From an uncultured Psychroserpens sp. (lineage in GTDB: Bacteria; Bacteroidota; Bacteroidia; Flavobacteriales; Flavobacteriaceae): DNA of 64,000 nucleotides. Each line of letters starts with the position of its first letter. Within the stretch, counting starts at the first letter, position 1. Shown here in pieces: positions 34,749 to 36,667 of this stretch. The notes under the pieces were generated by a model that made no database searches, was not told the DNA's origin, and saw nothing but the letters and a program-made list of their open reading frames with translations. Where the stretch lies: the NCBI RefSeq assembly GCF_947500255.1, contig NZ_CANMRL010000002.1, positions 1 through 64,000 on the forward strand. Reading direction: 5' to 3'. The translations under genes were made by a program, and so were the position numbers.

Positions 34749-35162
34749 TTAAGACTGATTATACAAATAACTTTGAAGAATAATCGTCGCGCTAATTTCA
34801 TCAACCAAGGCCTTATCTTGACGTTGCTTTTTTTTGAGTCCACTATCAATCATTGTTTGAAATGCCATCTTAGAGGTAAATCGCTCATCTACACGTTTAA
34901 CTGATAAATGAGGTATTTCTTTTGTAAGTGTCTCTAAAAATTTTGCTATGAAAACCTCACTTTCCGAAGCTTCAAAATTCATTTGCTTAGGCTCTCCTAC
35001 AATTATCAACTCAACATTCTCCTTAGAGATATAGGTCTTTAAAAATGGAATTAATGCTTTAGTCTCTACAGTTGTAAGACCAGAAGCAATAATTTGCAAC
35101 TCATCCGTAACTGCTATTCCTGTTCGTTTTGTTCCGTAATCTAAAGCTAAAATTCTCGCCAT
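34749..35162 (-). CDS. ruvX: Putative pre-16S rRNA nuclease / Holliday junction resolvase-like protein (YqgF)
   Basis: The product has 137 residues with an RNase H-like fold: ILALDYGTKRTGIAVTD (4-20), ELIIVGEPKQMN and VDERFTSKMA with the conserved catalytic acids. YqgF matures the 5' end of 16S rRNA in E. coli; the resolvase name comes from homology to RuvC. Its promoter is strong and nearly abuts the ATG. Confidence 0.95.
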   Translation of the reverse strand: MARILALDYGTKRTGIAVTDELQIIASGLTTVETKALIPFLKTYISKENVELIIVGEPKQMNFEASESEVFIAKFLETLTKEIPHLSVKRVDERFTSKMAFQTMIDSGLKKKQRQDKALVDEISATIILQSYLYNQS

Positions 35163-35166
35163 TTTG

Positions 35167-35196
35167 CAAAGTTAATCTTATAATCTTGTTTATCAA
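35167..35196 (-). promoter_or_regulatory. Promoter of ruvX, giving a leaderless mRNA
   Basis: On the minus strand a TTG (35194-35196) lies 19 bp before TAACTTTG (35167-35174), an exact -7 match. Only 4 nt separate the -7 element from the ATG. Confidence 0.65.
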
Positions 35197-35208
35197 TCTT
35201 AATGCCAT

Positions 35209-35347
35209 AAAAAAAACTCTTCTTTGCAAATCAAAGAAGAGTTTTAAAATAATCAACTATTAATAAATCCATGAAACTATTCACCCTCTACCTTAAACAG
35301 TTCATGTTTATATAATTAAGACACACCTGTTTAAAAAAAGTCACACA
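35209..35347 (-). ncRNA. Putative small RNA unit A of a four-unit tandem array
   Basis: On the minus strand the unit begins with the box TGTGAC-N14-TGTGTCTTAATTA (in 35308-35347). It contains TTAATAGTTGA before the stem and ends in a perfect 14-bp hairpin (35213-35226 with 35232-35245, 5-nt loop) followed by eight T. No open frame of note. The identity as an RNA gene is inferred from terminator polarity and repetition. Confidence 0.4.
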
Positions 35348-35354
35348 CCTCTAT

Positions 35355-35480
35355 AAAAAAACCTTTCTTATGTTTAAGAAAGGTTTTTAGTAGCTATTAG
35401 TTAGATAGGGTATAGATTAGGGATTATCTATAGTTTTTTCATGAAACTCAACTTCATCAAATCACAACTCTAACGTTTCT
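35355..35480 (-). ncRNA. Putative small RNA unit B of the tandem array (degenerate box)
   Basis: It ends in a perfect 14-bp hairpin (35357-35370 with 35375-35388, 4-nt loop) with seven T on the minus strand. CTAATAGCTA precedes the stem. The upstream box is degenerate; only a TGTGAT half is visible. GTTTCATG in its middle is shared with unit A. Confidence 0.35.
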
Positions 35481-35483
35481 CAT

Positions 35484-35614
35484 AAAAAAACCTTTCTTGG
35501 GGCGAAGAAAGGCTTTTAGTCTTGCTATTATATTAAAAAGGGTATATAGGGCTATTGCTATTATTAACTCAAAACCAATTATTTAGACACATCATTTTTT
35601 AATAGGTCACATGA
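35484..35614 (-). ncRNA. Putative small RNA unit C of the tandem array
   Basis: The box TGTGAC-N14-TGTGTCTAAATAA lies in 35582-35614. ATAATAGCAA precedes a hairpin whose 8-bp stem (35491-35498 with 35505-35512) continues after one mismatch, with seven T on the minus strand. Confidence 0.4.
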
Positions 35615-35618
35615 TTTC

Positions 35619-35770
35619 AAAAAAATAGAAAACTCTCCTAAGGGAGAAGGAGAGTTTTCACAAAAATTAGCTATTAATTATTAAATGTCTAGGCATTAGT
35701 TTTAGGGAAAATGCCCGACTAATAATAATTCACATTAATTAAGACACAACACTTTTTAAAAGGTCACATA
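35619..35770 (-). ncRNA. Putative small RNA unit D of the tandem array
   Basis: The box TGTGAC-N14-TGTGTCTTAATTA lies in 35735-35770. TTAATAGCTAA precedes a perfect 12-bp hairpin (35628-35639 with 35648-35659, 8-nt loop), followed by TA and seven T on the minus strand. Confidence 0.4.
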
Positions 35771-35819
35771 TATTTTATTTTTTTATTAATTCAGAATTTA
35801 TTCTAATCAATTATACCAT

Positions 35820-35827
35820 TATCTTTG
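35820..35827 (+). promoter_or_regulatory. -7 element (TATCTTTG) of dapD
   Basis: It is an exact TAnnTTTG match, 24 nt before the dapD ATG. Confidence 0.55.
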
Positions 35828-35851
35828 TGCAAATAGCAGATAAATTTCAAT

Positions 35852-36667
35852 ATGAAACAACTACAAGACACTATAGAAAAAGCTTGGAATGATCGTTCAT
35901 TATTAACTAGTGATGATACGATTAAAAGTATACGACAGGTCATTAACTTATTAGATGAAGGAACGCTTAGAGTTGCCGAGCCCACTCCAAGTGGATGGCA
36001 AGTGAATGAATGGGTAAAAAAAGCAGTTGTGCTTTATTTTCCAATTCAGAAAATGGAAACGCTTGAAGCTGGAATTTTTGAATACCATGACAAAATCCCT
36101 TTAAAGCGTGATTATGAAAAGAAAGGTATTCGTGTTGTCCCAAATGCGGTGGCACGTCATGGTGCCTATATTTCCCCAGGAACCATTTTAATGCCTAGCT
36201 ATGTGAATATTGGTGCTTATGTTGATGAAGGTACTATGGTAGATACGTGGGCAACGGTTGGAAGCTGTGCCCAAATAGGCAAAAATGTACACTTATCTGG
36301 TGGTGTTGGTATTGGAGGTGTATTAGAACCACTTCAAGCTGCACCAGTAATTATAGAAGATGGCGCCTTTATTGGCTCACGTTGTATTGTGGTTGAAGGC
36401 GTTCGTGTTGAGAAAGAAGCTGTTTTAGGTGCTAATGTGGTGCTAACCATGAGTACTAAAATTATTGATGTTACTGGAGATTCACCAGTAGAAATGAAAG
36501 GTGTCGTTCCAGAACGCTCTGTGGTTATACCTGGTAGTTATACAAAAACGTTTTCGGCAGGAAATTACAATGTGCCTTGTGCTTTAATTATTGGAAAACG
36601 AAAAGAAAGCACCAACAAAAAAACATCGCTTAATGATGCATTACGTGAATACGATGTTGCCGTGTAA
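35852..36667 (+). CDS. dapD: 2,3,4,5-tetrahydropyridine-2,6-dicarboxylate N-succinyltransferase
   Basis: The product has 271 residues of the left-handed beta-helix acyltransferase class. The N-terminal helical domain (1-90) is followed by hexapeptide repeats from about 100 to 200 (GAYISPGTILMPSYVNIGAYVDEGTMVDTWATVGS, VHLSGGVGIGGVLEPLQA). It uses succinyl-CoA to succinylate tetrahydrodipicolinate in the lysine/meso-diaminopimelate pathway, and so also serves peptidoglycan. It is followed after 14 bp by a lipoprotein gene and then by a GT9 gene, which are probably read from the same promoter. Confidence 0.97.
   Translation: MKQLQDTIEKAWNDRSLLTSDDTIKSIRQVINLLDEGTLRVAEPTPSGWQVNEWVKKAVVLYFPIQKMETLEAGIFEYHDKIPLKRDYEKKGIRVVPNAVARHGAYISPGTILMPSYVNIGAYVDEGTMVDTWATVGSCAQIGKNVHLSGGVGIGGVLEPLQAAPVIIEDGAFIGSRCIVVEGVRVEKEAVLGANVVLTMSTKIIDVTGDSPVEMKGVVPERSVVIPGSYTKTFSAGNYNVPCALIIGKRKESTNKKTSLNDALREYDVAV

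Follow-up and report, generated by a model that had tools for sequence, protein, structure and literature searches.

Tandem candidate small-RNA genes between ruvX and dapD of Psychroserpens, very likely linked to an ECF sigma factor and an MscS-like channel

In the window, i.e. the whole 64,000-nucleotide stretch of Psychroserpens DNA analyzed here, the divergent housekeeping genes ruvX (minus strand) and dapD (plus strand) are separated by a 689-bp gap that very likely holds tandem noncoding small-RNA genes, constituting the RNA arm of an autoregulated ECF-sigma/MscS-like channel regulon. The sharing of a promoter, the linkage to a sigma gene, the RNA structure and the terminators can all be read directly from the DNA. 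An earlier note on this window had proposed a tandem small-RNA cluster here, and this proposal is upheld by the conserved minus-strand units, covarying helices, terminators, a sigma-tied promoter and the lack of a widely shared ATG frame. We surmise that each intact unit is a separate minus-strand gene, in which an ECF promoter would drive a 95-120-nt RNA ending at an intrinsic terminator; a single ECF sigma factor, itself autoregulated and with an MscS-like gene directly behind its own, most likely recognizes every box. This sigma factor would be activated by membrane tension, osmotic or envelope stress; as it is tied to a small mechanosensitive channel, in the manner of SigX-CmpX, membrane tension is a plausible signal. 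Once active, it would transcribe the array alongside stress and envelope genes; pairing of the RNAs with mRNAs would then adjust envelope or metabolic gene expression.

Layout, conservation and structure of the RNA units

The minus strand of the gap carries the boxed units A, B and D as well as unit C, each with a terminator-like hairpin (Table 1). The four near-perfect hairpins of the earlier note lie where it had placed them, with the stem of unit C at 35357-35388, and their T-runs, as read from the sequence, are indeed longer on the minus than on the plus strand; the T-run of unit A is interrupted (TATTTTTTT). A terminator scan of positions 35100-35900 returned 4 sites vs. a shuffle mean of 0.2, three of them on the minus strand at hairpins A and D and the fourth at hairpin B on the plus strand only; hairpin C was called on neither strand. 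The box TGTGAC-N14-TGTGTC occurs exactly three times in the 64 kb, always in this gap and on the minus strand, and has 5 exact copies in the 4.0-Mb genome. Unit C, the third in minus-strand order, retains only the half-site TGTGAT (35466-35461), as already noticed from the letters, and no -10 partner for it was seen in the window sequence. The TAATAGC-like sequence said to precede each stem reads TAATAGC in units A, B and C and TAATAGT in unit D. Both ruvX and dapD are equipped with their own TAnnTTTG box, the primary-sigma consensus (PMC9723704), rendering the 689-bp gap superfluous as promoter space.

Table 1. Features of the ruvX-dapD locus, with positions in the window
Feature	Position	Strand	Basis
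ruvX	34749..35162	-	Pfam RuvX
ruvX primary-sigma -7 box TAACTTTG	35167-35174	-	TAnnTTTG in 18/19 genus genomes
Candidate small RNA D	35206..35312	-	alignments A1/A4, covariation, model R1; kept in 19/19 aligned genus regions
Terminator hairpin of D, then T-run	35213..35245	-	hairpin search and terminator scan
5' hairpin of D, 10-nt loop AGGTAGAGGG at 35284-35293	35270..35306	-	covarying helix 7-19/30-43 of A4
Promoter of unit D, ECF-type	35320..35345	-	exact match; -10 GTGTCTTA at 35317-35324
Unit C, probable B duplicate without full promoter	35354..35467	-	blastn, fold z -4.2
TGTGAT half-box of unit C	35461..35466	-	read from sequence
Candidate small RNA B, containing the conserved GCCCTATATACCC	35483..35578	-	alignment A3, 12 sequences
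Terminator hairpin of B	35486..35517	-	hairpin search; compensatory changes
Promoter of unit B, ECF-type	35586..35611	-	exact TGTGAC-N14-TGTGTC
Candidate small RNA A	35619..35735	-	alignments A2/A5, covariation, fold z -6.4; 5' end inferred, about 6-8 nt past the -10
Terminator hairpin of A, then TATTTTTTT	35628..35659	-	hairpin search and terminator scan
Promoter of unit A, ECF-type, TGTGAC-N14-TGTGTC	35743..35768	-	exact match; -35 at 35763-35768, -10 GTGTCTTA at 35740-35747
dapD primary-sigma -7 box TATCTTTG	35820-35827	+	TAnnTTTG in 19/19 genus genomes
dapD	35852..36667	+	Pfam THDPS_N_2

Of the 19 genus regions in which the locus includes both genes, 12 have three boxes and 7 have two, with the first box in 19/19 and the third (unit B) in 12/19; units A (beside dapD) and D (beside ruvX) are the stable core of the array. 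The units, about 95-120 nt long, share a common plan consisting of a unit-specific conserved segment, TAATAG[C/T] and a terminator. In unit D, an invariant loop segment (TAGAGGGT) sits in a covarying 5' hairpin (alignment A4) and is followed by a conserved TTAATAGTTGATTA-like stretch and the terminator. In unit A, a long helix closes a covarying hairpin whose loop contains CCCTA in most rows, followed by an invariant ATAGCTAATT core, seen as TAATAGCTAATT in 20/21 rows, and then the terminator. As for unit B, GCCCTATATACCC is found in 7/12 rows and the terminator covaries. Unit C was found whole in the window genome and in L019 (97% over 114 nt by blastn) and partially in L020 (75% over 77 nt); since its 3' half matches unit B at 80% identity over 64 nt, C is probably a duplicate of B in decay, lacking a full promoter.

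Covariation in homologous loci, the absence of which had been named in the earlier note as counting against a small-RNA cluster, was found in units A and D. The consensus of D (21 rows) has 94.8% of cells paired and 9/26 pairs changed on both sides, a number matched by 0/500 shuffles; slid structures pair 45-57%, a control that somewhat favors the structures of both A and D because these were derived from the tested rows themselves. For A, 94.0% of cells are paired and 10/22 pairs are changed on both sides (reached by 2/500 shuffles) or, counted in cells, 48 (0/500). In the window the fold z-scores were -6.4 for A, -1.9 for B, -4.2 for C and -4.4 for D, with B folding only weakly better than its shuffles (9/200 fold as well); the minimum-energy fold of the window copy of D differs from the consensus 5' hairpin. 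Alignment A1 comprises 23 rows, from which L127 and L167 were dropped to give the 21 rows of A4 used for the model; A2/A5 likewise exclude these two and have L024 truncated, rows L001, L019 and L020 of A3 were trimmed to leave out unit C, and G015 is in no alignment. In G015 the array is split, with a boxed unit and dapD on one contig and boxed units on another (L026, G015:C13), which suggests a rearrangement between units.

The suggested link to Rfam and its Flavo-1 motif found no support, with 0 matches at the gathering score in the window and in 18 related loci. A weak sub-threshold match to PyrR (E 0.29, score 25.6 vs. a gathering score of 54) was obtained; such weak matches by E-value look like terminator look-alikes and were discarded.

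The unit-specific conserved segments would fit different targets for each unit, as the earlier note had envisaged. Exact-complement (seed) searches with the conserved segments of D and B in 21 genomes found no targets: the D-loop complement (ACCCTCTACC) gave 71 matches, including the array antisense, vs. 106 for the reversed pattern, and the B-segment complement (GGGTATATAGGG) gave 12, of which 8 are by coordinates the array's own antisense strand and 4 lie outside the array (vs. 1 in the control), all 4 overlapping open frames of at least 100 codons. Duplex energies between units, and between units and the anti-Shine-Dalgarno, reached a best z of about -2.6 vs. shuffles, for the paralogous pair B with C, and we claim no pairing from them.

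The shared promoter box and the ECF sigma gene

We noticed that the box is best written as TGTGAC-N15-GTGTCTTA, which is most likely the -35/-10 pair of an ECF-sigma-type promoter. The earlier note had taken it for two TGTGwC direct repeats, a description that has to be corrected: the real elements are GTGAC and GTGTCTTA, and the leading T of the second is poorly kept (40% of the 20 sigma-gene promoters have a T there, as do 54% of the 50 array boxes), which speaks for a -35/-10 pair and against a direct repeat. A base tally of these two sets yielded the same core, i.e. GTGAC, 15 nt, G-T/G-GTC and then TTA. Compared with the SigX promoter of B. subtilis (TGWAAC-N16-CGWC), the spacing and the GTC core of the box are those of ECF promoters. 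Thus, where a regulator or dedicated promoter had been suggested, the evidence favors a dedicated promoter of ECF type, with a box shared with an ECF sigma gene, over a direct-repeat operator.

In its own genome, the box allowing at most 1 mismatch has 17 sites vs. 3 for the reversed pattern. The 14 sites outside the array, with ORF overlap in 6 (L007, L008, L010, L012, L014, L018), are a mixture; of the others, most lie just upstream of genes, which include that of a 190-aa ECF sigma factor as well as those of a DUF2853 protein, a 143-aa protein of unknown kind, a LysM/BON protein, a PAS histidine kinase and an OmpA-family protein.

This 190-aa sigma factor (G000:C7:165657-166226) matches PF04542, PF08281/PF04545 and, weakly, PF07638 only, thus having Sigma70 regions 2 and 4 without 1.2 or 3, the domain content of an ECF sigma factor. 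Among the matches listed, it is 82-91% identical to Psychroserpens proteins, and it has relatives in PDB (SigW, RpoE). Its best NCBIfam match is SigX (PRK09640), with 107.3 bits falling below the equivalog cut-off of 194. Directly downstream is an MscS-like channel gene (Pfam of the window genome's copy), and an MscS-like gene follows the sigma gene in the same direction in 48/48 loci, one of which is a diverged paralogue. The box is upstream of the sigma gene in 20/20 genus orthologues, its -10 GTC lying 31-36 nt ahead of the start codon, and the sigma factor is most likely autoregulated through it. A diverged second sigma gene (45% identity) at L068 (G014:C2) is preceded by a similar but weaker box and has an MscS-like neighbor of its own.

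Within the genus, the sigma gene was called at E<=1e-30 in 20/23 genomes, and an array match was obtained in the same 20. The exact TGTGAC-N15-GTGTCTTA was matched in 19 of these 20 sigma-positive genomes, with 84 sites vs. 0 for the reversed control; the remaining one, G022, has box variants only. Three genomes were negative for the sigma gene: 1) G003 has a 92-nt gap with no array and no exact box; 2) G021 has no exact box, and its gap (L343) is 1204 nt of unrelated tandem repeat containing TGTGACTTCAA; 3) G016 has one exact box. In G016 there is no intact sigma gene, as evidenced by a remnant for which tblastn matched residues 1-46 (another reading gives 1-88, interrupted by three stops), still with a box in front, that runs straight into channel-gene pieces corresponding to residues 148-225 of a 226-residue stretch; the sigma-channel pair (L348, G016:C10; L342) has apparently been hit by an internal deletion. 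Its 497-nt ruvX-dapD gap is a recognizable decaying array as judged by eye: the A box is gone, the TAATAGC of A is changed and its stem mismatched, B is almost gone, the loop and T-run of D are altered, and one box survives. A strict co-absence of array and sigma was accordingly refined, as G016, array-negative by the first search, holds a decayed relic with an intact box. Decay of the array along with the sigma gene is what one would expect if the array depends on the sigma factor, and G016 amounts to a natural knockout within the genus, with the sigma-channel pair mostly missing and the array decaying.

Alternative readings of the boxes and hairpins

One alternative is that a transcription factor binds the two elements as direct-repeat operators, the small RNAs being transcribed with the primary sigma. 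Within the window alone the elements do resemble TGTGwC repeats 20 bp apart, but this account is improbable in light of a second element reading GTGTCTTA with no conserved leading T, a box positioned directly upstream of the sigma gene in all 20 genus genomes, and a primary-sigma box TAnnTTTG that was found near the start of only 1/50 boxed array units vs. 18/19 for ruvX and 19/19 for dapD. These same TAnnTTTG boxes speak against the hairpins being terminators or leaders for ruvX and dapD, a reading that draws on the position of the units between divergent genes and on the T-run of D ending 43 nt short of ruvX in the window; ruvX and dapD diverge, so nothing here needs terminating, and the box is absent between the genes in 52/53 named divergent ruvX-dapD loci, leaving this explanation with very little probability.

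Equally hard to credit is the notion that the units encode small peptides. Short frames do exist, including a TTG-started frame into the D terminator that is open in 19/21 rows, which conservation of the stem would explain; yet for frames of at least 10 codons with other starts, a single start column is common to at most 11/21 (A), 6/21 (D) and 5/12 (B) rows, and the helices covary as RNA. Least probable of all, in our view, is a REP/BIME-like repeat class or mobile element without RNA function. The tandem head-to-tail units, the varying copy number (2 or 3 boxes per genus region, n = 19) and the resemblance of C to a recent B duplicate would agree with such a class; on the other hand, the 651-bp region is single-copy, matching its own genome only at itself with no dispersed copies of the REP/BIME kind besides the locus, the position between ruvX and dapD is fixed, the units are orthologous across species, the structure covaries and a promoter precedes each intact unit.

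We retain tandem small-RNA genes behind an ECF promoter as the preferred reading. What is expected of ECF-sigma-dependent small RNAs is found here in several respects: an ECF promoter directly upstream that is shared with the sigma gene's own promoter; a cognate sigma in 58/61 box-positive genomes; and a terminator (called by the scan on the expected strand for A and D, on the opposite one for B and on neither for C), a conserved structure and no ATG frame that is widely shared.

Known systems and the wider Flavobacteriaceae

In Proteobacteria, small RNAs under sigma control are at the heart of the response to envelope stress, and MicA and RybB are ECF-sigma-dependent small RNAs of Gram-negative bacteria. 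Bacteroidota are mostly without Hfq and use unusual expression signals. VrrA is described as a small RNA under sigma-E in Vibrio. Judged from descriptions, the units resemble VrrA, MicA and RybB in being noncoding RNAs with an ECF promoter, an intrinsic terminator and an envelope-type sigma regulon; they differ in forming tandem diversified units, in another phylum and with a promoter sequence other than that of sigma-E. The LhrC copies of Listeria are tandem and near-identical. As described in PMC4132741 and PMC5880928, LhrC1-5 are multicopy small RNAs under the LisRK two-component system, comparable to our array in placing several copies under one envelope-stress regulator; in contrast to near-identical copies under LisR, the units here have diverged from each other and share an ECF box. 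Closer in phylogeny, FopS/GibS of Bacteroides, with 14 paralogous FopS genes under primary-sigma promoters (PMC11697453), is likewise a paralogous small-RNA family in Bacteroidota, unlike the present units, which form a single tandem array behind an ECF promoter.

The Rfp small RNAs are also flavobacterial, and one of them, Rfp11, is listed among the promoters matching SM6, an ECF-type motif of Flavobacterium psychrophilum with a CGT box that serves type IX secretion genes (PMC9723704). Guerin et al. 2021 (PMC9723704) remark that further ECF start sites may await discovery, and no description of the array or its box was found in the parts of the main text covered here. In the SigX-CmpX pair of Pseudomonas, an ECF sigma factor is associated with a small MscS-like channel as well as with envelope functions (PMC7641640). 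Our sigma gene is likewise beside an MscS-like gene and has SigX as its best NCBIfam name, but it scores 107 vs. the SigX cut-off of 194. We know of no small-RNA array at the Pseudomonas SigX-CmpX locus. Among the matches listed from the open-access literature, nothing was found on this promoter, sigma regulon or array, and the regulon is apparently undescribed in the literature searched, which does not establish its absence in print. Bacteroidota have few worked examples of sigma-dependent small RNAs, and this locus supplies a promoter, a sigma gene and mostly 2-4 RNA units per genome that are testable together in marine bacteria.

Across 249 Flavobacteriaceae genomes, the exact box has 120 sites in 61 genomes vs. 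3 matches of the reversed pattern. It is present in 58/87 genomes with the sigma at E<=1e-40, being absent in exact form from the other 29, and in 3/162 genomes without it (Fisher p about 1e-30, with shared ancestry ignored); at E<=1e-75, a line set only after the list was seen, the box is present in 41/42 genomes. Conversely, a sigma match at E<=1e-40 is found in 58 of the 61 box-positive genomes, leaving 3 without one. Among these 3 is G238, where boxed units form a second tandem pair at another locus (L135). ORFs of at least 120 aa contain 2/119 placed sites (one site, G166:C23, is left out for want of a usable locus) vs. 1820/2380 random positions (76%) in the same loci; one of the two, in G193, sits just upstream of a sigma gene, and the ORF there may be spurious. 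The box is upstream of an ECF sigma gene at 23 sites in 23 genomes and upstream of ruvX at 10 sites in 8 genomes; other recurring genes, assigned by Pfam on single examples, are LysM (6 sites), DUF2853 (5), rpoD (4), M48 lipoprotein (4) and MscS (3). A terminator-like hairpin without an earlier long ORF is found behind 26/119 exact sites, a count without control.

Outside the genus, the ruvX-dapD gap holds four boxes at L122, two each at L126, L127, L128, L165 and L038, and a single one in Winogradskyella thalassocola (L167) and in G072. Among named DapD relatives, ruvX and dapD are divergent in 53/80 loci, with the box only in that Winogradskyella. The D model R1 gave clear matches in 6/249 family genomes (E<=9e-7); at E<=0.01 the count is 24/249, of which 18 (2e-4 to 7e-3) were dismissed as a group as chance matches. 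R1 did not recognize the boxed units of L122, L127, L128 and L165, implying that those RNAs have diverged or are different. GCTATTA, the reverse complement of TAATAGC, lies within 60 nt behind 15/120 exact family boxes, where letter shuffles gave 0.6 on average and 3 at most. TAATAGC follows 12/120 of these boxes within 100 nt (1.5 on average and at most 6 in shuffles). The counts are partly non-independent as some sites are orthologous; at exact boxes no genome had both. At L098, L102, L108, L115, L137, L140 and L143, all in other genera, the box is followed by GCTATTA and then a hairpin, making these other short candidate small RNAs, for which Rfam gave no match.

It is conceivable, if on balance doubtful, that these elements belong to a general envelope/osmotic stress circuit of Flavobacteriaceae, in which an ECF sigma and an MscS-like channel would be the counterpart of sigma-E with MicA/RybB. 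Diversified tandem small RNAs with different seeds would be its RNA arm, other genera would use the same promoter for GCUAUUA small RNAs, and both kinds may act on a common partner or motif from opposite sides. In four family genomes the box stands before rpoD, the primary sigma gene (L157, L163; Pfam for L163), and the ECF sigma may thus feed the housekeeping sigma.
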